From Synechocystis sp. LKSZ1 (GTDB taxonomy: Bacteria; Cyanobacteriota; Cyanobacteriia; Cyanobacteriales; Microcystaceae), in the NCBI RefSeq assembly GCF_040436315.1, contig NZ_AP031572.1:2604001-2668000 (forward strand): a stretch of 64,000 nt of DNA, written 5' to 3'. Position numbers and translations under genes: made by a program. Below, piece after piece: positions 35,534 to 47,158 of this stretch (within the stretch, counting starts at the first letter, position 1; every line of letters begins with the position of its first letter). The notes beneath the pieces are model-generated. The model was given only the letters and a program-made list of their open reading frames with translations. It had not been told where the DNA came from and did not search any database.

Positions 35534-35830
35534 ATGGCCACTGTTAAAATTACTGCCTTAGATACCGAGCATCCCTCTCGTTTGGCCCAAACGCGCATCC
35601 GCATCCAAATTCCCCGCCAATACCAGCAAGACCCGATCATCTCGCAATTAGCGACCCGTTATCACCTGGAAATTAACATCCTGGCGGCGATTCTAGGGGC
35701 CAACGGCAAGGAAAGTGGCTGGTTTGACCTCCACCTCGTGGGAACAGAAAAAAATATCCAAGATGCCCTGGTCTACCTCGGAGACCTCAATATCAATATT
35801 ATTTCCGATCTGGAAACCGACGGTTGGTAA
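35534..35830 (+). CDS. NIL-domain protein of the sulfate permease operon
   Basis: A 98-residue protein consisting of one NIL domain, a ligand-binding-type module also found at the C-terminus of MetN methionine transporters. The segment [19 protein letters not shown] and later [19 protein letters not shown] show the fold. A strong Shine-Dalgarno (AGGAGG) precedes the ATG. Its TAA overlaps the cysT start codon by one base, so translation is coupled. In other cyanobacteria a small gene occupies the same place between sbpA and cysT. A sensing or regulatory role for sulfur compounds is likely but unproven. Confidence 0.85.
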
Positions 35831-36702
35831 TGACTCATTTGACTGAAGTAGCCTCAAAATTCCTGGCCCCCCAGCCACGTCCGTGGTTGGGACTGATCGG
35901 CTCTCGTTTTTCGCCCCCTTGGGCCGTTACACTTATCTATTTGTTATTTCTACTGATTCTGCCCATTGCGGCCCTGACGACTAAATCGCTTTCCTTGGGC
36001 TGGGGCCGTTTCTGGGAAATTGCCACCTCCGACATTGCTCTTTCGGCCTACGACGTTACCTTTGTCACGGCCTTGGCGGCCGGGGCCATTAATGGCCTGT
36101 TGGGAACTATCGTCGCCTGGGTTTTGGTGCGTTACCAGTTCCCCGGTAAAAAAATTGTTGATGCCGCTGTGGATTTACCCTTCGCCCTACCGACTTCCGT
36201 TGCCGGGTTAGTCTTGGCTACGGTCTATAGCGACAATGGTTGGATTGGCCAGTTATTTGCCCCCTTTGGCATTCGCATTGCCTTTACCCGCCTGGGGGTG
36301 TTTGTGGCCATGTTGTTTATTTCCTTACCTTTTATCGTGCGGACACTCCAGCCCGTGCTTCAAGAAATGGAAGAAGAGGCTGAAGAAGCGGCCTGGTCGT
36401 TGGGGGCAACGGAATGGCAAACCTTTTGGCGGGTTATTTTTCCGCCCCTATTACCGCCGATTTTGACGGGCATTGCCCTGGGCTTTTCGCGAGCAGTGGG
36501 GGAATACGGTTCCGTAGTGATCGTGGCCTCCAACATTCCTTTCAAAGATTTGATTGCCCCGGTGTTAGTCTTCCAGCGCCTAGAGGAATACGACTACGAA
36601 GGCGCTACGGTGATCGGTGCGGTTCTGCTCCTAGTCTCCCTTGTTTTACTCCTCGTGATTAATCTCTTACAACAGTGGGGTCGTCGTTATGCCGTGGATT
36701 AA
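35830..36702 (+). CDS. cysT: Sulfate ABC transporter permease CysT
   Basis: Inner-membrane subunit of the sulfate/thiosulfate importer. The 290 residues have about six transmembrane helices and the ABC permease EAA loop [21 protein letters not shown]. The start at 35830 overlaps the stop of the NIL gene (TAATG). The end overlaps cysW by 14 bases. It forms the channel with CysW, powered by CysA. Confidence 0.95.
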
Positions 36703-37498
36703 ACCGAAATATCTTCTCATTGCCCTAGCCCTGGCTTACTTAGGCCTAATCCTCGTTATCCCCGTCGTTTCCGTTTTCTACGAAGCCTTTCATAACGGTC
36801 TGGGACAATTCTTAACCACCATGAAAGACGATAATTTTTTAGCAGCAGTACGTCTTACTTTGATTATTGCGCTCATTGCCGTTCCTCTCAACACGGTGTT
36901 TGGCCTCTGTGCAGCCTGGGTTTTGGCGCGTAATCAATTTCCCGGCCGGGCTCTGTTTCTCAGTGTGCTGGATTTACCCTTCTCCATTTCTCCCGTAGTT
37001 GCGGGTTTAATGATTGTTCTGCTCTACGGACAAAAGGGCTGGATTGGCTCATTTTTCCACGAAGCCGATATTAAAATTCTTTTTGCCATTCCCGGCATGA
37101 CCATTGCCACCATTTTTGTCACCCTGCCCTTTGTGGCCCGAGAGGTGATTCCGGTCTTAGAGGAAATGGGGCCAGAGCAGGAGGAAGCCGCTCGAATTCT
37201 GGGCGCTAAGGATTGGCAAATTTTCTGGCGGGTTACTTTACCCAATATTCGTTGGGGCTTGCTCTACGGAGTATTGCTGACCAACGCTCGGGCCATGGGG
37301 GAGTTTGGTGCGGTTTCGGTGGTTTCCGGCAGTATCTTGGGACAAACCAGTACCCTGCCTATTTTTGTAGAACAAGAATACAAAAACTATCAAACAGAAG
37401 CCGCCTTCAGTGCCGCTGTCGTCTTAGCGTTACTGGCCGCCGTCACCCTAGTGCTCAAGGAAATCCTTGAACGATACACCGGTCACCACTCAAAATAA
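36689..37498 (+). CDS. cysW: Sulfate ABC transporter permease CysW
   Basis: Second membrane subunit of the sulfate importer, 269 residues, with EAA loop [21 protein letters not shown] and [14 protein letters not shown] near the C-terminal half. It begins within the cysT end, the expected tight coupling of an equimolar pair. A 48-base gap separates it from cysA. Confidence 0.95.
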
Positions 37499-37546
37499 CC
37501 TTCCGTATTGCTTGTAAACATCGCTAGTTTCTAGGACTTATCTTTC

Positions 37547-38596
37547 ATGAGCATTATTATTAGCAAAGTTGAAAAAAACTTTGGTAGTTTCAAAGCCCTA
37601 TCCGAGATTAATTTGGAAATTCCTGATGGTAAACTAGTGGCTCTCTTGGGCCCATCAGGGTCAGGTAAATCAACGCTTTTGCGGACTATTGCCGGCTTGG
37701 AGAAGCCCGACCAAGGCCAAATTATTATCAATGGCCAGGACACAACTCACATCGATATTCGTAAACGAAACATTGGTTTTGTTTTTCAACACTATGCTCT
37801 TTTCAAACATCTGACCATTCGTCAAAATATTGCCTTTGGCCTAGATATTCGCAAGCATCCTAAAAACCAGATAAAACAACGGGTTCAAGAACTCTTGGGC
37901 CTAATCCAGTTAGAAGGCCTGGGAGACCGCTATCCTTCCCAATTATCTGGTGGCCAAAGACAACGGGTGGCCCTGGCCCGGGCCCTGGCCGTACAACCCC
38001 AAGTTCTGTTGCTAGATGAACCCTTTGGGGCCCTGGACGCTAAAGTGCGGAAGGAACTGCGGAGTTGGTTGCGGCAATTGCACGATGAAGTTCATCTAAC
38101 GAGCGTATTTGTGACCCACGACCAGGAAGAAGCCATGGAAGTAGCCGATGAGATTGTGGTGATGAACCAGGGCAAGATTGAGCAGATTGGCTCCCCCGCA
38201 GAGATTTATGACCATCCCGCAACGCCGTTTGTGATGGAATTTATTGGCGAAGTCAATATTTTGTCGCCGACAGCGAATCTTTTCCAAAATCATCCCGAAA
38301 TCAACACCAATGAATTTCCCCGTCATGCCTCAGCTTCGGTGTTTGTTCGTCCCCATGATGTGGGTATCCAGACGGCTCCTGATGAGGTAACGAGTCCAGC
38401 CGTAGTGAAACGCATTATCCATTTGGGTTGGGAAATTCAGGTGGAATTAAGTTTGAATGATCAAGCGATAGTTGTAGCTCACCTAAGTCGGGAACAGTTC
38501 AACGAGCTTCGCTTAGAAGTGAGTCAATCAGTCTATATCAAACCCCGCCAAAGTAAATTCTTTTCTGAAAACGGATTTCTCACCTATGCCATCTAG
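37547..38596 (+). CDS. cysA: Sulfate/thiosulfate ABC transporter ATPase CysA
   Basis: ATPase of the sulfate importer, 349 residues. Walker [10 protein letters not shown], signature [15 protein letters not shown], Walker [13 protein letters not shown] and H-loop [14 protein letters not shown] are all present. The C-terminal part from about residue 240 ([12 protein letters not shown]) is the TOBE-like regulatory domain usual in CysA/MalK-type subunits. Its last 11 bases overlap the start of the next reading frame. Confidence 0.95.
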
Positions 38597-38996
38597 TTTT
38601 CCCGCCTTCATAAACCAACGTTTTTGGGCTTTAATACTTATTTTTCTAGGATTTTTATTATCCCCTGCTTGCTGGTGGAATGATCTATTGATTAATCTAC
38701 CTTTAGCTTATGTCTTTGGCCGCTTCTGTAGTTGGTTTATTCCTCAGTTACTTTTACCTGGGGTAATTCTTGGTTATTGGTTCTCTAACTTAGTGGGTAT
38801 TGTCTTAATGCATATCGGTGCCCAGCAAGCTTTTCAGAAAGGGAATCAAAACGTATCACTCCAAGACCAAATCAAGTCAGGCCTAATCACCTCTACTACG
38901 TTTACCTTAGTGATTCTCAGTCTTGCTTACTTTCAAGTTGTTGATCTCTCAAACTATATTCCCAGTGAATTATTTGCAGTTGAACCAGTATCTTAG
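38586..38996 (+). CDS. Small membrane protein in the sulfate operon, unknown function
   Basis: A 136-residue protein with about three to four hydrophobic segments ([55 protein letters not shown]). I do not recognise a characterised family. It overlaps cysA by 11 bases and is followed 63 bases later by the cysR-like regulator, so it belongs to the sulfur operon. It could assist transport or sense membrane sulfur status, but nothing in the sequence proves either. Confidence 0.7.
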
Positions 38997-39012
38997 CTGA
39001 GCTCTATGCTCG

Positions 39013-39035
39013 CAAGAAATAGTATTCATTTCTTG
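39013..39035. promoter_or_regulatory. Inverted repeat upstream of the cysR-like gene
   Basis: CAAGAAAT (39013-39020), a 7-base spacer, then ATTTCTTG (39028-39035) form a perfect 8-bp dyad ending 24 bases before the ATG of the regulator. It could be an operator for an autoregulated Crp-type dimer or a weak terminator of the operon upstream. Confidence 0.45.
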
Positions 39036-39059
39036 TTTGATCCACCTTCCTAATTTGAA

Positions 39060-39623
39060 ATGCCTCAATCTATTGCTAGCTCATTAAAAAATTTCACTAC
39101 GAGAACTTTATTACCTCATAAAAATAATTGCTTCTGGAAAATAGAAAGTGGTATTGTTCGTACTTTCACTTGGTTAGAGGATGGTACTCTGGTGACTCTT
39201 GGGCTATGGGGGCCTGGAGATATTGTTGGCAAGAATTTTGCTAGCATTACGCCCTATAAGTTGGAATGCCTAACGCCAGTTCAAGCCTCTCTAATTTTGC
39301 AAAACCATGATGAACTGATTGAGATGCTGGTTGCTCATATTCAGCAAATGAATGAACTGGCTGTTGTTCGTCGCCAAAAAACCGTTGATAAAATGCTATT
39401 TCAGTTTCTTAAATACTTAGCTAATAAATTTGGCAAGATGACCACAAAAGGGCAATTGATTGATATTCGTTTAACTCATCAGGATTTAGCAGATTTATTG
39501 GGAACTAGCCGCGTCACCATTACCCGATGCCTAGGACAACTAGAAGATCAAAAATTGATCAATCGCCAAGTATTAAGGGGAATTGTCATTCCAGAGGATG
39601 AAATTTGGCACTATGAAATTTGA
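39060..39623 (+). CDS. cysR: CysR-like Crp-family regulator of sulfur acquisition
   Basis: A 187-residue Crp/Fnr-type regulator. The N-terminal half holds a shortened beta roll (IESGIVRTFTWLEDGTLVTL, LWGPGDIVGK), and the C-terminal part holds a winged helix with recognition helix LTHQDLADLLGTSRVTITRCL. CysR of Synechococcus PCC 7942, encoded among its sulfate permease genes, is required for growth on alternative sulfur sources; position and size fit the same role here. The symbol rests on context as well as fold. The N-terminus is shorter than in ordinary Crp proteins. Confidence 0.75.
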   Translation: MPQSIASSLKNFTTRTLLPHKNNCFWKIESGIVRTFTWLEDGTLVTLGLWGPGDIVGKNFASITPYKLECLTPVQASLILQNHDELIEMLVAHIQQMNELAVVRRQKTVDKMLFQFLKYLANKFGKMTTKGQLIDIRLTHQDLADLLGTSRVTITRCLGQLEDQKLINRQVLRGIVIPEDEIWHYEI

Positions 39624-39635
39624 AATCTATCGGGG

Positions 39636-39926
39636 TCAGTAGTGCCAACTATCACCAGCAAAATTTGAACGAACTCTAAAATCAATATTGGCTGTCTTTA
39701 AATAAGCCAAGGCTTTCTCAATTTTCTGGGGAGTTCTTCTCATTTCTAATTCAAATCTCCCTGCTTCTTGACGATTATCTAAAAAATCCGCTTTTGTTAT
39801 ATTGACAACCAAGTCATAATAGGCAATCAGTTTATAAATAATTGGAGTTGATTTATAAGAATAAGGGATTGATAAGCCAAGCCTAATTGTAACTAGATTT
39901 TTATTGAAGGAGCTAACTTCTCTCAT
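39636..39926 (-). CDS. Second NIL-domain-like protein
   Basis: A 96-residue protein read toward the cysR-like gene. VTIRLGLSIPYSYKSTPIIY and GRFELEMRRTPQKIEKALAY line up strand by strand with the NIL protein at 35534 ([35 protein letters not shown]). It is therefore a diverged paralogue. It converges on the cysR-like gene with a 12-base gap. Its function is unknown; the same family in the same sulfur locus suggests a sensing role. Confidence 0.75.
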   Translation of the reverse strand: MREVSSFNKNLVTIRLGLSIPYSYKSTPIIYKLIAYYDLVVNITKADFLDNRQEAGRFELEMRRTPQKIEKALAYLKTANIDFRVRSNFAGDSWHY

Positions 39927-39991
39927 TCTTTTTTTAAAGATAACAATGTGTTTTTATCCACCTTACCACATACTAAAAAAGTAGGTTGATT

Positions 39992-40549
39992 ATGGAAGCA
40001 ATGTTTTTAGTAGCGAGCGATTGGCATAGTATTGCATTTCGTCTTTGCTTAGCTTTATTGGTTGGCTGCTTAATTGGAATCAATCGCCAAAAAGGTGGAC
40101 GGCCCGCTGGCATGAGAACCTTTATGTTAGTCAGTATGGGATCGGCTCTGTTTGTAATGATTCCTTTGCAGGCGGAGGGGGATAGCGCGTTTGCTGCAAC
40201 CAATGCCCTAAGTCGAACTATTCAAGGCGTAAGCTCTGGGGTTGGCTTTATCGGTGCAGGTCTGATTCTGCAACAATCTGATCATCGAAACCAGACTAAA
40301 GTGCGCGGTTTGACTACGGCCGCTTCTATCTGGATTGCTGCCGCTTTAGGAGCAACGATTGGTTGTGGACTATGGCAAACGGGACTATTAGGTGGCTTTT
40401 TAACCCTATTAGTACTAAGTGGAGTAAAACGCCTACGACGCTGGATATTAATTGCCCTAGGAAAGCGTCGGCAAGCCCAGCTTTTAGAGCTAGAAGAGTT
40501 GTCTGAGCCAGAACAAAATGAGTATTTTTTTAACCAAGAACTATTATAG
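39992..40549 (+). CDS. MgtC/SapB family membrane protein
   Basis: A 185-residue membrane protein with about four helices. The MgtC pattern is seen in LIGINRQKGGRPAGMRTFMLVSMG and SSGVGFIGAGLILQQ, followed by GLTTAASIWIAAALG. MgtC proteins help growth at low magnesium or affect ATP synthase. Start is taken as the ATG at 39992; a TTG six bases earlier is less likely. The C-terminal tail is cytoplasmic and acidic. Confidence 0.85.
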   Translation: MEAMFLVASDWHSIAFRLCLALLVGCLIGINRQKGGRPAGMRTFMLVSMGSALFVMIPLQAEGDSAFAATNALSRTIQGVSSGVGFIGAGLILQQSDHRNQTKVRGLTTAASIWIAAALGATIGCGLWQTGLLGGFLTLLVLSGVKRLRRWILIALGKRRQAQLLELEELSEPEQNEYFFNQELL

Positions 40550-41084
40550 TACATGATTCACTCAGAGATGAATAAGTCCTTGTGGAAGATAGATCTTTTC
40601 CGCTTTTCACAAGTGTAATTTTCACTTTTAAGCTTAAAATAAATACTAGAATTAACCTCCCAGCGATCCAACAAATCAGTGCCTCTATCTTGGGAAGTAT
40701 CACTCTGTAGTGATAATAATTTTCTCTTGAGTTGAAAACTTAAGTTCATTATTTAACTCAACCCCTTGGGAAAAAAGACTTTTATATAAAACCAATAGAC
40801 AATTTGGGATACGAATCTCAAAGAGAAGTCAATCCAGGAATATTAAGGTCTTATTAGTTTTTGTTAAATTGACGACAAAATTTATCCTTTTGTTTAAATC
40901 TTTAGTCAAAATAGTATAGCCAATGTAACTCGGCCCTTTAAAAAGAGCAATAAAGGCTAAAAAATTGTTGTCTATAACACAATTTCTTGTCTTTTCCTAG
41001 AGACTATGCCAAGCTTAATAAACACTTAAAAACAATTCCCATCGGATTAGTGTATTTTGCAGATAATTATTAAGGATTGTAACA
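40550..41084. other. AT-rich intergenic region
   Basis: About 535 bases without a supported gene. A 63-codon reverse frame (40558-40749) has no recognisable family or Shine-Dalgarno. An imperfect dyad lies at 40962-40985 and the region probably holds the promoter for the small membrane protein and the HEPN-like gene that follow. Confidence 0.6.
40962..40985. promoter_or_regulatory. Imperfect inverted repeat, possible operator
   Basis: AAATTGT (40962-40968) and ACAATTT (40979-40985) form 7-bp arms separated by 10 bases, about 100 bases before the ATG at 41085. The symmetry suits a dimeric regulator. No factor can be assigned. Confidence 0.35.
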
Positions 41085-41324
41085 ATGGAAGATGTTTCTT
41101 TGAGTTTTTCTCGTCAGTCTAGAGGTAAATCAACTCTTAATCGTAAGGGAATCTATAAATTGTGGTGGCATATTCGAGCCTACGCTATTATCGCTGGTAT
41201 CCTAGTTCTTGGACTACTGAAATTAACAACACTCGTTTTCGTTGATAGTCTTGTCATGCTAAAATCTTTACAAGGATTCAAGCGAAAAAATAAAATAGCA
41301 ACAAAGATCGCTTTATTTCCCTAA
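41085..41324 (+). CDS. Small single-helix membrane protein, unknown
   Basis: A 79-residue basic protein with one hydrophobic helix (YAIIAGILVLGLLKLTTLVF) between lysine/arginine-rich ends. No family is recognised. It ends five bases before the HEPN-like gene, so the two are probably translated from one message. AAGGATTG before the ATG offers a weak Shine-Dalgarno. Confidence 0.6.
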   Translation: MEDVSLSFSRQSRGKSTLNRKGIYKLWWHIRAYAIIAGILVLGLLKLTTLVFVDSLVMLKSLQGFKRKNKIATKIALFP

Positions 41325-41329
41325 AAATA

Positions 41330-42130
41330 ATGAAACAGCTTAAATCTCGTTCTCACGATTTACGGACGTTATTTGAGCGAGAGATTACAGCCGAATACAT
41401 CGCTGAGCCTCTGCAAACTCTACCCGCAGAATTGGCAATTGTTGAGGGCCTAGTCAGAATGGAGCAAAAGGACTTTGATGTGATGGGGGTAGAGCATCAG
41501 GGCCTAATCACAGGCTATTTAGAACGAGGGGTCTTGATTACACCGGGATTAACGACCTGTCAAGACTACCAAACGGTCTTCAAGCTTCAGGATCTCGTCT
41601 CAGCCGGAACCCCTCTGATCAAGTTACTCCCCATCTTTAAACAAACCCATCGTTTATTTGTCTTAGAAGGTAATGTCGTGACTAGTATTATCACCCAGGG
41701 TGATCTGCAAAAGGCACCGGTACGAATGCTGTTGTTTAGCCAAGTAACGTTGCTAGAGATGAATCTGCTCCGTCTCATTCGACTCTATTACCCCGGAGAT
41801 TCTTGGCAATCGGTTCTCAAAAGTGATCGGGTAGAACTTGCTCAACGCCATTTACAGGGTAGTCAAGCTAGAAATGAGGTAATTAGCTTATTAGACTATC
41901 TACAGTTTTGTGATAAGCGTGACCTAGTGCTCCGTCACCCCGATCTCTTTAAGAAATTAAAATTTCCGTCTAGAAATGCCGGAGAGTATCTTTTCAAGTC
42001 GGCGGAAAAATTACGAAATTGCTTGGCCCATGCCCAGGATTTAGTCCATGACTCCACTTGGTCAGAACTCATTACCTTAGCTGAAGGAATTGAATCCCTG
42101 CTCATTCGCTGTGAAGCAATCGGATCATAA
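41330..42130 (+). CDS. CBS-like protein with C-terminal HEPN-like domain
   Basis: A 266-residue cytoplasmic protein. The N-terminal half (ERGVLITPGLTTCQDYQTVF, PIFKQTHRLFVLEGNVVTSI and ITQGDLQKAPVRM) resembles a CBS-type regulatory module with the usual I-T-x-x-D end. The C-terminal half is helical and carries EKLRNCLAHAQDL at about residues 226-238: R229-N-C-L-A-H234 fits the RNxxxH motif of HEPN ribonuclease domains. The combination suggests a ligand-gated RNase or a scaffold. It lies inside the sulfur region beside a tiny membrane protein. The domain calls are by eye and should be confirmed by profile search. Confidence 0.6.
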   Translation: MKQLKSRSHDLRTLFEREITAEYIAEPLQTLPAELAIVEGLVRMEQKDFDVMGVEHQGLITGYLERGVLITPGLTTCQDYQTVFKLQDLVSAGTPLIKLLPIFKQTHRLFVLEGNVVTSIITQGDLQKAPVRMLLFSQVTLLEMNLLRLIRLYYPGDSWQSVLKSDRVELAQRHLQGSQARNEVISLLDYLQFCDKRDLVLRHPDLFKKLKFPSRNAGEYLFKSAEKLRNCLAHAQDLVHDSTWSELITLAEGIESLLIRCEAIGS

Positions 42131-42348
42131 TTGCTCATATCAAACAAGGTATATCCTAAGAGTGTCTTCTATTAATTTTTGATATTAAAAAGCCTATTTT
42201 TATTGACTCTAGGTATTTATTTTAAATAAATTTAAAACATATTTAATTGCACCAATTGATGGTAGTACTTGATGTGACTTATACAACATCTAAATAAAAT
42301 AAATCATGCTATCTTTTAAGGAGTTTCTATAATCCTTAGATTCATTGT

Positions 42349-43341
42349 ATGCTTCGAAAATTACTTCTATTGTGGTCTAAGGTAGGCAAACAAATCAATT
42401 CTCTAGCCTACAGAATCATTTCCGTCATTTTCGGGATAACCTTATTTCTTGCTTTAGGCATTTCAGCTTCCAACTCAGCAAACCCTAGTAGTTCTATCCA
42501 GTTTGTTTCCCCTAGCTGGGTTCAAGAGCACTTGAGTGACCCTAAGCTTAGAATTCTCGACGTTCGCATTAATCCCTTGGAATACATTGATGGACATCTA
42601 CCCCAAGCGGTCAATATTGCTGACAATAACTTTCGCGGCCCCAATGGTTTTCTTCCAGTTCAGTACTGGGAAACAGCAAAAATAGGTAGCTTACTCTCCA
42701 AGGCAGGAGTTAGTAACAACAATAAAGTACTAGTCTATTCCGATGGTAATAATGTTCTTGGTGCAACAATGGTTGCCTATTTACTAGAACGTTCTGGTGC
42801 GAAGGATATTGCTGTCTTAGACGGCGGCTTCAAAGGCTACAAAGATGCGAAAGAAAATGTGACGAAGGAATTCCCTCGCTATAAAAATGGGAACTTTACC
42901 CTCAAAGATAACGAAAATATTCGTATTAGCTTATCAGAGCTAGAAAAGCTGATCGGTAAACCGGGAGTAGTAATTATCGATCCACGTCCCCCAGAGTTAT
43001 TTGAGGGTAAAACCAATCTTTGGGTAAGAAACGGGCATATTCCAGGGGCCAAAAATATTCCTTGGCCCACTTTTACTGAAGCCAATAATCCCGATGAGGC
43101 CCTCAAGAACCCTCACCAGCTAAAATCCCTTGATGCAATCAAAAAAATTCTTGCCGACCGAAATATAAAACTCAGCGACAATATTATTGTTTCCTGTAGC
43201 ACTGGTCGGGAAGCAACCTTGCAATACGTTGTCCTGAAACATTTGTTGGGTTATCCTAAGGTTAGAATTTATGAAGGCTCGTGGACAGAATATAGTACCA
43301 CAAACTTGCCTGTTGAAACTGGCCCAGAAAGAGCAGTATAA
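42349..43341 (+). CDS. Periplasmic thiosulfate sulfurtransferase (rhodanese), RhdA-like
   Basis: Two-domain rhodanese of 330 residues that transfers sulfane sulfur, for example from thiosulfate to cyanide or other acceptors. A signal-anchor lies at the N-terminus (IISVIFGITLFLALGISAS). The first, catalytically inactive domain has ILDVRINPLEYIDGHLPQA. The second has VIIDPRPPELFEG and the active-site loop CSTGREA with the catalytic cysteine. A periplasmic rhodanese (RhdA) induced by sulfur limitation is known in Synechococcus PCC 7942, and the setting agrees. Confidence 0.88.
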   Translation: MLRKLLLLWSKVGKQINSLAYRIISVIFGITLFLALGISASNSANPSSSIQFVSPSWVQEHLSDPKLRILDVRINPLEYIDGHLPQAVNIADNNFRGPNGFLPVQYWETAKIGSLLSKAGVSNNNKVLVYSDGNNVLGATMVAYLLERSGAKDIAVLDGGFKGYKDAKENVTKEFPRYKNGNFTLKDNENIRISLSELEKLIGKPGVVIIDPRPPELFEGKTNLWVRNGHIPGAKNIPWPTFTEANNPDEALKNPHQLKSLDAIKKILADRNIKLSDNIIVSCSTGREATLQYVVLKHLLGYPKVRIYEGSWTEYSTTNLPVETGPERAV

Positions 43342-43563
43342 ACAGTAATCAAACAGAATCCAAGATAGCATTTACCTACTTTTTAAGGATTTTAATAGTA
43401 GGTATTTTCTGCATCAAGAAAACAATATGATCACTCCTTTTGCCTTGAATTCAGTCTTAAAAATATTTAAACATACTTCTAACAAATGACTTGACAAGAA
43501 AAAGATTAGTGAATAACATAAAATACAGTATCCCGATAAATAAAGTGTATTTCTTTTAAAGTC

Positions 43564-44091
43564 ATGGTGCTATATCTTGTCGAATCAGAAATTCAAGAAC
43601 TAGGTATTGAGCAAATCAAAGAATCCATTGAGCACATTTCTCAACTCATTGCACCGGATGCCGGCAAAGTGGTTGAAGTACAAGTCGGCGAAGATTTAAA
43701 GCGTTTATTTATTGTTGTTGATGCTGATAACCAAGAATCAGCAAAAAATAGCATCGAGCACGCTGGCTTCCCTGTTCATTTGCTCAAAGAAGTTCGCTTG
43801 ATCGGGCAGGATTTGGTGACTCTAAGCAAACGCAAAGCTAAGGCGAACTATTTGGTTGAATGGAATTTGCCTCCGGGATTAACCATGGAGCTATATCTGG
43901 CTCGTAAAGCCGAAAAGACGCCGCTTTATGAACAAATTCCCAGTGTTCAATTTGAAAGAACCTACGTTTGTGAAGATTTGAGTAAATGTCTTTGTTTCTA
44001 CGACAGCCCTAATGAAGTGACGGTAAAACAAGCACGAGATATTGTCAGCGCTCCGATTGACCGTCTAACTCCCATTCAAAATCTTTATTAG
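43564..44091 (+). CDS. DUF4242-like protein
   Basis: A 175-residue protein. The C-terminal half (LVEWNLPPGLTMELYLARK, then RTYVCEDLSKCLCFYDSPN and VKQARDIVSAPIDRLTPI) matches the DUF4242 pattern of a ferredoxin-like fold, some members of which bind nickel. The N-terminal half starts with YLVESEIQELGIEQIKESIE and may be a degenerate second copy. It is followed after about 37 bases by the acyl-CoA-dehydrogenase-like gene and is probably co-transcribed. A role in organosulfur use is suggested by position only. Confidence 0.7.
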   Translation: MVLYLVESEIQELGIEQIKESIEHISQLIAPDAGKVVEVQVGEDLKRLFIVVDADNQESAKNSIEHAGFPVHLLKEVRLIGQDLVTLSKRKAKANYLVEWNLPPGLTMELYLARKAEKTPLYEQIPSVQFERTYVCEDLSKCLCFYDSPNEVTVKQARDIVSAPIDRLTPIQNLY

Positions 44092-44128
44092 CTCATCCTA
44101 TTTGTTTATTTTTCAGGAACTTGAGACC

Positions 44129-45205
44129 ATGCTTGCACAACAAGAACGAGTTCAATCCTTGCTTTCTAATCATGCCCATGCTTTAAATGATGGTTCTGGA
44201 GGAGCGAATGTTGGTCATTCCCTGGGGTTATTAGGAGAAGTGGGATGGTTGGGTTATGGTGTCCCCTCGGGATTAGGGGGCCAGGAAGGCTCGATAGCAG
44301 AGGCGGTAGAGGCGATTGCCCTAGTTTCTGAAGTTTGTCTCACCAGTGGCTTTTCCTTTTGGTGCCAAAGGGCGGTGATTGGGTACTTGGCACATTCTGA
44401 CAACGCTTGGCTCAAATACCACATTTTGCCGCTACTACTGCGAGGAGAAATGTCTGGGGCAACGGGCCTGTCCAATGCCATGAAGCATTTAGCTGGGCTG
44501 GAAAAACTACGCATAGAGGGACGCATTCATGGGGATTCAGTTACTGTCAATGGATTCTTGCCCTGGGTTTCAAATCTTAAGCCTTATCAATTCCTGCTGG
44601 TCGTTGCCGCAGAGACCCGTCAAGGAGACTCTCTCGTTGTTGCCGTTCCGGCCGACACCCATGGTGTTAACAGGGGCAGGGATCTCAAGCTAATTGGACT
44701 TCAGGGGGCCTGGACAAGCACGATTAATCTCGATAATGTGCAACTTTCTTCGGATTGGATTATTAGCCACAATGCGCAACAGTTTTTAGCAACCATTCGA
44801 CCTCAATTTTTGCTATTACAGTGCGGCCTGGCTTTAGGCATTACCCGTAAATCCTTGTTGGAAGTTAGCTATTGCCTTCAGCAAACTAAAAAAAGCCTTA
44901 GCCACCGCTATCGTCAGAAGTATGAGCAATTACTTGCCCTGGAAGAAACCTTAAGAAACTTAAGTACATGGGAATACCATGATCTTGCTCAAGTCTGTCG
45001 GTTGTTTCAACTGAGAATCGACCTAACACGCCTAGCCGTCGAGTCCGTCAGCTTAGAATTAGAAGCCCAGGGAGGTAGTGCATATATTCGTTCTAGTTCT
45101 ACGGCCAGACGATTGCAAGAAGTTGCTTTTTTACCCGTTTTAACCCCTAGCTTGGTTCAGCTTGAGCAAGAACTTCATCGCCATAATTTAACCGCTATTG
45201 GTTAG
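44129..45205 (+). CDS. Acyl-CoA dehydrogenase-like flavoprotein (SfnB/DszC-like)
   Basis: A 358-residue protein of the acyl-CoA dehydrogenase fold (GWLGYGVPSGLGGQEGSIAE, LLLRGEMSGATGLSNAMKH, GLQGAWTSTINLDNVQL). Members with this fold that sit in sulfur loci (SfnB, DszC type) act as FMN/FAD monooxygenases on sulfones or other organosulfur compounds. The gene lies between a DUF4242 gene and a sulfonate-type transporter, supporting that role. The ATG at 44129 has AGGA nearby; a TTG at 44102 would add nine residues. The substrate is unknown. Confidence 0.75.
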   Translation: MLAQQERVQSLLSNHAHALNDGSGGANVGHSLGLLGEVGWLGYGVPSGLGGQEGSIAEAVEAIALVSEVCLTSGFSFWCQRAVIGYLAHSDNAWLKYHILPLLLRGEMSGATGLSNAMKHLAGLEKLRIEGRIHGDSVTVNGFLPWVSNLKPYQFLLVVAAETRQGDSLVVAVPADTHGVNRGRDLKLIGLQGAWTSTINLDNVQLSSDWIISHNAQQFLATIRPQFLLLQCGLALGITRKSLLEVSYCLQQTKKSLSHRYRQKYEQLLALEETLRNLSTWEYHDLAQVCRLFQLRIDLTRLAVESVSLELEAQGGSAYIRSSSTARRLQEVAFLPVLTPSLVQLEQELHRHNLTAIG

Positions 45206-45238
45206 TTGTTGGTCTTTATTTCCATAGGGTTCTCTATC

Positions 45239-45871
45239 ATGTCACGCTTACCAACTGCTCCCTCTGCTCCAGACTTGCTTGCAATACCGGTGGATGCTAA
45301 GCCCATTCTTAAAGTCGTCGATCTCGGTTTAGCGTATCACCATCGACAAAAAGTTTCTCCCATTTTTGAGGGGATTCATCTAGACATTTACCCAGGGGAA
45401 GTAGTGTGCTTACTGGGGGCAAGTGGATGCGGAAAATCTTCTCTGTTATCTGCCGTCGCTGGTTTTGTGAGTCAGGGCCATCCTCAAGCAACCGTTAGAC
45501 ACTGGGGGCAGACTTATCTACAGTCCGAGCCCTTACAGGCCCCTGATCCGCGGATTGCCGTCGTCTTTCAAGATGCAACCTTATTACCCTGGTTGACAGT
45601 TTGGCAGAATGTAGCCTGGGGATTACAGTTACGGGCGATGCCGCGGTTATCCCGTTCAGAACTGCGAGAGCGGGTAGGCGAAGCACTGTTGAGCGTTAAT
45701 TTACAGGGCTTTGAGTCGAGCTACCCCCGTCAGCTATCAGGCGGTATGGCCCAACGAGTCGCCTTGGCCAGGGCCCTGGCCCGTCATCCGACCCTACTCC
45801 TGCTGGATGAACCCTTTAGTGCGCTAGATGTCATTACTCGTTTAGAAATGCAAGTTTACAACGGGTTTTAG
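45239..45871 (+). pseudogene. Truncated sulfonate/nitrate-type ABC transporter ATPase (SsuB-like)
   Basis: The frame codes for 210 residues with Walker A GASGCGKSS, Q-loop AVVFQDATLLPW, signature [15 protein letters not shown] and Walker B LLLLDEPFSALD. It then breaks off after ITRLEMQ with five unrelated residues and a stop. The H-loop histidine and the C-terminal part (roughly 50 or more residues in the family) are missing. The bases that follow read as the middle of the permease in another frame, so a deletion has removed the end of this gene. ATP hydrolysis should be impaired. Confidence 0.8.
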
Positions 45872-46422
45872 TCAGCCTTCTCTTGGCCACTATTGTCGGG
45901 ATTCCTTTGGGAATTTTATTAGGATTATTTAAAGGCATTGAAAAATCAACCTCAGTCCTTTTTCAATTTATTCGTATGATTTTTCCCCTATTCTGGATGC
46001 CGATTGCCGTTATGGTCTTTGGCATTGGGGATGCACCGATCTATTTTTTATTGACCATCGCTGCTGTCTGGCCCATTATTCTCAATACAAGCATGGGAGT
46101 CGTCTCCGTTGATAGACACTGGTTATTGTTGTCGAAAAGTCTCTGCGCCAATGCCTTAGAAGCTTTAACCCAGGTTATTGTACCTGCTATTATTGCCCAT
46201 ATTTTAACGGGATTACGCCTAGCTGTTGGTATCATTTGGATTGTGCTAGTTCCAGCGGAAATGCTAGGAGTGACCTCGGGCCTAGGTTACTATATCTTAG
46301 ATACAAGAGACCGTTTGGATTACTCTGAGCTAGTAGCAGTTATTTTGATAATTGGTGTTATTGGCTATGGTTTAGATACTTTCTTAAGGTTGATGCACCA
46401 AGCCTGGGCTCATCATCGTTAG
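45850..46422 (+). pseudogene. Truncated sulfonate-type ABC permease (SsuC-like), 5' end deleted
   Basis: From about 45850 the frame reads ASLQRVLVSLLLATIVGIPL, which is how the membrane domain of SsuC/TauC permeases begins after a first N-terminal helix. It goes on through ILLGLFKGIEKSTSVLFQ, the EAA-type loop ALEALTQVIVPAI, and GIIWIVLVPAEMLGVTSGLGY to a normal C-terminus. The first 70 or more residues, including the start codon, are missing. A TTG at 45883 could start a shortened product of 179 residues. No solute-binding-protein gene is next to it, so the transporter is probably dead. Confidence 0.8.
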
Positions 46423-46486
46423 CTCTAAATAAAACCAGTTTTTGTTTTTTTTAACTTCAATTCTGGTATTAGCTCTTCTAAAATTT

Positions 46487-47158
46487 ATGGCGCTTTCCCA
46501 AGATTACTCTTCTTTTAAAAAAAGATTATTTAGCGTAAAGTGTGTCAGTTATGCTGGCTTTGTTTTTATATGCTCTATTGTGTTTATTAGTCTAGTAATT
46601 ACTGTTCATTACAATCCCTTGGGTCTGGGCTGGGATCAAGCTATTCTCATTGCACTGCATCAAACTCATCAACCGATTCTAGACCACTGGGCTAAAATCT
46701 TGACGGATTTAGGAATCTGGATTGTAACGGCACCTGTCTTGGGACTCATTGCCTTAATTTTGACCTATCAACAGCAATGGCAAAAGGGAGTTTATATTGC
46801 AATCACTGTCTTTGGTGCGATCCCTCTCAGCTACGGGCTAAAACATCTTTTTAATCGTCCTCGTCCCCACCTCTGGTCTAGTGATGTAGCCTGGCCGACT
46901 AATCCTTCCTTTCCCAGTGGCCATGCTTTCTCTAGTATGATGTTTGTGACTTTAATAATTCTCCTGTGGCCTTGGAGGGGACGGACTTGGGTCGTGCTAG
47001 CGGGAAGTCTTTTTGTCATCTTGATTGGCTGGACAAGACTGTACCTTGGGGTTCACTATCCGAGTGATATTTTGGCTGGTTGGAGTATAGCAATTGCCTG
47101 GTGTGTGAGTGTTTATCTAATCTATTCGCCGGGGCAGACCATCCAAAAAGACGAGTAA
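46487..47158 (+). CDS. PAP2-family membrane phosphatase
   Basis: A 223-residue membrane phosphatase, probably acting on phosphatidic acid or undecaprenyl diphosphate. The three motifs of the family are present: KHLFNRPRPH, PSFPSGHAFSS and TRLYLGVHYPSD, with the catalytic histidines. About five helices surround them. The ATG at 46487 is taken as the start; a TTG at 46442 would extend it by 15 residues. Its end overlaps the reverse-strand amidotransferase by 42 bases. Confidence 0.88.
   Translation: MALSQDYSSFKKRLFSVKCVSYAGFVFICSIVFISLVITVHYNPLGLGWDQAILIALHQTHQPILDHWAKILTDLGIWIVTAPVLGLIALILTYQQQWQKGVYIAITVFGAIPLSYGLKHLFNRPRPHLWSSDVAWPTNPSFPSGHAFSSMMFVTLIILLWPWRGRTWVVLAGSLFVILIGWTRLYLGVHYPSDILAGWSIAIAWCVSVYLIYSPGQTIQKDE

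Follow-up and report, generated by a model that had tools for sequence, protein, structure and literature searches.

The locus studied here raises the question of what a two-domain protein, encoded between sulfate-type transporter genes and a rhodanese gene of a cyanobacterium, does in the cell, and whether the small open reading frame (ORF) directly in front of it belongs to the same system. The window, i.e., the whole stretch of DNA analysed, comprises 64,000 nucleotides of Synechocystis sp. LKSZ1 (NZ_AP031572.1, positions 2,604,001 to 2,668,000). From the sequence alone, the original prediction proposed a HEPN-like ribonuclease fused to a CBS-like sensor, acting as a nucleotide-gated RNase with a membrane partner, as a toxin–antitoxin-like pair, or in the sulfur-stress response. 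Our results make it very probable that the protein joins a CBS pair to a HEPN domain.

Gene Organization and Genomic Context

The ORF list with translations places the gene for the 266-aa protein (CBS-HEPN gene) at positions 41330..42130 of the plus strand. The small ORF of 79 aa precedes it on the same strand (41085..41324), and the gap between both is 5 bases, as originally described; the motifs ITQGD and RNCLAH were likewise found where predicted, at residues 121–125 and 229–234. Upstream (5′) of the CBS-HEPN gene, the window contains sulfate-type ABC transporter genes, a Crp-family regulator, and mgtC, and downstream (3′) a rhodanese gene. By sequence and gene order, the ABC genes probably represent cysT, cysW, and cysA, Pfam having been applied to the ATPase alone of the three. 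Promoter predictions numbered 8, as compared to 5.7 in shuffled sequences, and terminator predictions 1, as compared to 1.1.

This position, with sulfate-type ABC genes and a Crp-type regulator on one side and rhodanese on the other, speaks for a switch responding to sulfur or methionine status. In such a switch, the CBS half would sense S-adenosylmethionine (SAM), methylthioadenosine (MTA), or the adenylate pool, and under sulfur limitation RNA levels would be adjusted by the HEPN half, with no role in defence. Against this reading stands the sister genome G002, in which the crp-like gene, the g136-like ORF, the rhodanese gene, and a PAP2-like gene are clustered inside approximately 3 kb. The same segment contains neither the CBS-HEPN gene nor mgtC nor the small ORF, and cysTWA follows about 10 kb further on. 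Since the CBS-HEPN gene is missing from this segment, it was either inserted there in the window's species or lost from G002. Comparison of window positions 35824–47158 with G002 (L178, L184) also showed that cysTWA and the crp-like, g136-like, and rhodanese genes occur in a different order, and that mgtC, the small ORF, and the CBS-HEPN gene are restricted to the window's version of the segment.

The N-Terminal CBS Pair

The AlphaFold2 model calculated from 27 sequences (mean pLDDT 85.9, pTM 0.75) features a CBS pair at approximately residues 23–130 (41396..41719, plus strand), followed by a helical domain at residues 129–263. The solved structure closest to the predicted CBS pair was 2yzi (Z 13.9, rmsd 2.6, 116 residues aligned). 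AcuB with bound ADP/ATP or AMP/ATP was among the best fold matches (Z 13.7–13.8, rmsd 1.9, 110 residues aligned), and the MTA- and SAM-bound CBS pair 3kpb, a further point for the sulfur reading, also appeared among them (Z 12.6). Searched alone against Pfam, the window protein gave no CBS match; PF00571 matched 22 of the 23 alignment members at E ≤ 1 (best 1e-7). Among PDB sequences, phmmer recovered YbtU alone (E 0.12), and the profile search gave CBS proteins with E values of 0.004 at best. Taken together, the structural match and the Pfam matches of the members indicate that a tandem CBS fold is very probably present, in agreement with the original assignment.

The second CBS motif (ITQGDL) includes T122 and D125, both of which are invariant in the wide 18-row alignment A3. 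An Asp is absent from the first motif (G62-Y63-x2-R66) of the window protein and of the cyanobacterial rows shown. As only the second motif combines Thr and Asp, general knowledge of CBS domains leads us to expect one classical nucleotide site per chain.

The Probable C-Terminal HEPN Domain

The predicted HEPN domain covers approximately residues 132–263 (41723..42118, plus strand). Its helices were predicted at residues 129–153, 165–180, 193–209 (broken), 215–233, and 244–263, and H234 follows directly after the helix 215–233. When the C-terminal half was folded alone, two of the five models were confident (mean pLDDT 87, 81, 66, 65, and 59). HEPN-type chains, namely HEPN-type toxins, Csm6, and HI0074, occupied the first 12 structural rows (Z 6.5–7.7), many of which represent the same few proteins, and the next row dropped to Z 5.2. 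The best row was 6m6w (Z 7.7, rmsd 2.8, 91 residues aligned), a Z value under the level considered safe for helical bundles. HEPN is named in six of the 12 titles and MntA-HpeT in two; 7bxo, 5yep, and the Csm6 structure 6tug are presumably also HEPN-type. PMC3710099 counts 1jog as HEPN. Foldseek yielded no match for the C-terminal half at E ≤ 0.001. Given the non-significant Foldseek result and only two of five models being confident, the fold evidence supports a HEPN-like fold at modest strength, short of proof. The structure prediction proposed originally as a check thus returned a helical, HEPN-like C-terminal half.

Against Pfam, HEPN_Swt1 (PF18731) was the sole match of the window protein (E 0.025; 15.3 bits, with a Pfam cut-off of 27.5; 16.6 bits in a search of its own genome). 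At E ≤ 1, the same family was detected in 19 of the 23 alignment members (best 5.2e-4). No NCBIfam match was obtained for the window protein. PADLOC models matched weakly and were disregarded, with PDC-M34B at E 0.0079 (3 of 18 members, best 6.3e-4) and Csx1/Csm6 in 1 of 18 members (E 0.005). Many HEPN families also have a conserved acidic residue in helix 2 (Ex3[KR]); invariant E183, D195-K196-R197, and E219-x3-K223 are mere candidates for its counterpart.

Conservation of the Predicted Active Site

Conservation of R229 and H234 had been named beforehand as a test of the HEPN assignment. The 111 loci collected, window included, encode 92 distinct proteins, 91 of which were kept; a row of 200 aa (L088) was left out. 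R229, N230, and H234 were conserved without exception in all 91, including the window protein, whose identity to the 90 homologues ranges between 53% and 64%. Alignment A3 additionally includes two proteins from haloarchaeal plasmids and six divergent relatives from cyanobacteria, at 23–25% identity to the window protein; 14 invariant columns remain, T122, D125, R229, and H234 being among them.

These residues (RNCLAH; 42014..42031, plus strand) conform to the R-x4-6H motif with a polar residue after R, and are predicted to form the active site at the end of a helix. By itself, such a short motif is little proof, because the window protein alone reaches only a sub-threshold HEPN_Swt1 score and no CBS match; it is the homologues that lift the assignment above chance. 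In active HEPN domains, as described in PMC3710099, the motif sits where a helix gives way to a loop, and R is directly followed by N; the window motif agrees. A catalytically idle HEPN fold, limited to binding RNA or a partner protein, would accord with the modest structural match and with RNase activity being a prediction, but the invariance of R, N, and H makes it very unlikely.

The Small Upstream ORF

The 79-aa product was originally described as a one-helix basic protein, and its composition bears this out: 14 K+R residues stand against 3 D+E, and a single stretch is strongly hydrophobic. Its codon use is coding-like (z 3.5 versus base-composition shuffles), and the chance of 79 open codons is approximately 0.002. 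Together with the 5-base gap and the shared strand, these features argue for a toxin–antitoxin pair in which the membrane-protein-like ORF would partner the large gene.

The search for co-occurrence in other genomes, also part of the original prediction, revealed nothing convincing. With tblastn, no match fell below E 0.58 at the other 110 CBS-HEPN loci (which include duplicates, and one of which, L110, has only 96 bases upstream), or below E 0.28 in the remaining four genomes of the genus. In 195 genomes of the order, 15 others matched at E 0.012–0.1 only, i.e., at chance level, and 12 of the 16 matches are interrupted by stops. The large gene is retained in its absence. Furthermore, even the most widespread neighbour family is present at only 27 of the 80 named loci, and no conserved adjacent antitoxin gene is apparent. 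The toxin–antitoxin pair is therefore the least probable of the readings considered, and both it and the membrane partner were rejected for want of a conserved partner at the other loci, in the genus, and in the order. The small ORF is probably an orphan outside the system, as judged from these sequence comparisons. Of the first mechanism proposed originally, the nucleotide-gated RNase thus stands as the likeliest, whereas the small protein as its partner falls.

Distribution of the CBS-HEPN Gene

In total, 388 genomes of the order were searched, of which 71 matched and 317 were without a match. Counted from the rows, 61 of the 71 genomes carry a full-length copy, the window's own genome included and one of them (G334) with internal stops; one carries a split copy (G372), four a partial copy only (G249, G278, G169, and G336), and five a divergent relative only. 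The remaining four genomes of the genus gave no CBS-HEPN match. Matches were also obtained in 34 of the 386 genomes of a phylum-wide sample, five of them over the CBS half alone; the three matches outside the order were all of the latter kind. The broken, split, and partial copies in G334, G372, G249, G278, G169, and G336 are a sign of repeated gene loss, and such a patchy, standalone spread is often seen in accessory effector genes.

The distribution also bears on the possibility that the same two domains constitute a housekeeping factor of RNA processing or translation rather than an arrest or defence effector. The clear sequence conservation, at the identity values given above, and neighbours that are often stable within genera would suit such a factor. 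However, a housekeeping role predicts wider retention, and thus the patchy spread, with most genomes of the order and all others examined in the genus lacking the gene and six carrying damaged copies, counts against it; we regard this reading as unlikely.

No CBS-HEPN match was obtained in phage records or viral contigs, and a virus-borne origin of the gene was accordingly rejected. Plasmid matches were haloarchaeal only, and the paralogue query against plasmids yielded no match. Nine plasmid records were matched, and six of them were read: the R is kept in 6/6 and R-x4-H in 5/6. In the sixth, from Halorhabdus tiamatea (L159:3983-4669), an ISHti6 (IS630-like) transposase gene cuts the HEPN end short. 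At all six loci examined (L143, L144, and L157–L160), a divergent gene encoding 115–127 aa starts 78–122 bases from the CBS-HEPN relative; Pfam gave no match for the four of these products that were scanned. At L158, a restriction endonuclease gene lies directly beyond the divergent gene.

Neighbouring Genes in Other Genomes

The neighbourhood of the gene differs between families, and some genes recur among the 80 named loci. A convergently oriented ARD-like cupin gene was found at 27 of these loci, less than 1 kb from the end of the CBS-HEPN gene in 24 and at approximately 3 kb in three. A TOBE-domain protein is encoded nearby at 24 loci, a small Met/Cys-rich protein upstream on the same strand at 19, and enzymes read as Cys/Met PLP enzymes at 10; the Pfam family Cys_Met_Meta_PP was detected in 2 of 99 scanned neighbour proteins. 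One Met/Cys-rich protein (120 aa, L034:5447-5806) gave sub-threshold Pfam matches only.

Among the matches listed, and read by eye, a cupin gene lies within 5 kb in at least 11 genomes of family f33, at least 16 of f2 (two with a broken CBS-HEPN gene), and at least two of the three of f20, while 22 genomes of f33 and six of f2 have none nearby; judged against the named loci, f33 seems to represent Nostoc-like genomes and f2 Microcoleus-like ones. In a tree of 44 cupins, 12 rows of the general type formed a supported group (99/99), none of them near a CBS-HEPN gene, and the rows near a CBS-HEPN gene fell into three separate lineages outside this group, the root being a midpoint only. This suggests that one or more special ARD-like cupin paralogues accompany the CBS-HEPN gene, and such a paralogue is a possible functional partner. 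An example lies at L036:10005-10556; such paralogues recur in Nostoc-like and Microcoleus-like genomes and in one further family.

The frequencies of the ARD-like cupin and of the putative Cys/Met PLP enzymes, raw counts without a background rate, are in line with the sulfur/methionine switch introduced above. On the other side, at four loci (L032, L033, L047, and L111), at most one recurrent neighbour family is in common with the rest, and in the window genome no cupin occurs at E ≤ 1e-15 among the matches listed. We therefore consider this switch unlikely, about on a par with the housekeeping factor. A still more speculative idea, which we hold to be rather improbable, is that the signal is SAM or MTA and that the CBS-HEPN protein is tied to the fast-evolving ARD-like cupin paralogue near it in members of three families. 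If true, RNA cutting would be linked to the methionine/sulfur status of the cell, perhaps when phage upsets it.

The surroundings of the gene are often stable among members of one genus. A mobile defence island would behave differently, and this stability, like the lack of matches in phage records and viral contigs, counts against the defence role proposed below. Neighbour proteins were also scanned with PADLOC, without a control set. The 99 proteins came from 24 of the 80 named loci, each neighbour family being represented once and 28 repeats left out. The scan returned 41 families, 21 of the 25 shown being found in a single protein. Ten neighbour proteins compared singly, again without a control set, gave four matches, i.e., subtilase/IetS, a mad3/mad8-like protein, and two TPR proteins.

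Proposed Function

We favour, as the somewhat more probable account, a single-gene, ligand-gated HEPN ribonuclease, for which we infer RNase activity, a ligand, dimerization, a target RNA, and a role in arrest or anti-phage defence. The N-terminal CBS pair would bind an adenosine-type nucleotide, T122 and D125 lying at the expected ligand site. Binding would rearrange the dimer and thereby switch the C-terminal HEPN pair, which would cut RNA by means of R229 and H234. Activation may then lower translation or arrest growth. By analogy with DS-11 (see below), phage infection would be the likeliest occasion, with general energy or nutrient stress as an alternative. The cupin gene recurring nearby gives a concrete starting point for tracing the pathway of the ligand.

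Comparison with Known Systems

The original prediction considered the element as possibly not described before; the architecture is, however, already present in PMC3710099 and PMC13092281. In the former, CBS-HEPN fusions of the Abi2/Swt1 block (alr3009; Pelobacter gi 118580987) were predicted to be active in 2013 and proposed to act as ligand-gated RNases, responding to a ligand through RNA stability or degradation. The window protein has the same domains, and its sole Pfam match is also HEPN_Swt1; some of those fusions carry an extra HD domain, and alr3009 is likened here by domain make-up, not by orthology. PMC6563490 lists HEPN and CBS entries separately. In literature coverage that left out most subscription journals, no title naming a cyanobacterial CBS-HEPN family was found.

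MntA-HepT (HEPN-MNT) toxin–antitoxin systems share the HEPN fold, provide the best structural rows (6m6w and 7ae2), and have an R-x4-H site (R102A and H107A in entry titles). They differ in that no MNT antitoxin gene was recognised beside the window gene, where the CBS pair would regulate in cis. Csm6/Csx1 proteins (CARF+HEPN) likewise join a sensor of an adenine ligand to HEPN, with 6tug among the top rows (Z 7.2); their sensor is CARF, whereas that of the window protein is CBS. Csm6/Csx1 is tied to the cyclic oligoadenylate of type III CRISPR.

The closest parallel in architecture is DS-11, a one-protein CBS-HEPN system from a screen of E. coli strains that was shown in 2026 to act against phage (PMC13092281). 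According to that study, its defence was lost on mutating either a CBS residue in contact with adenine or the HEPN catalytic residues, and its ligand was not identified. Like the window protein, DS-11 combines CBS and HEPN in a single protein, both parts being required in DS-11; the likeness is one of architecture by description, not of sequence alignment, with the adenine contact Y157 of DS-11 unmapped onto the window protein. The CBS-HEPN architecture is thus already known, and the cyanobacterial protein adds a member to it. DS-11 is the one CBS-HEPN protein found with an experimental role, and the well-conserved cyanobacterial family, with its distant relatives on archaeal plasmids, adds another system for the study of ligand, target RNA, and role.
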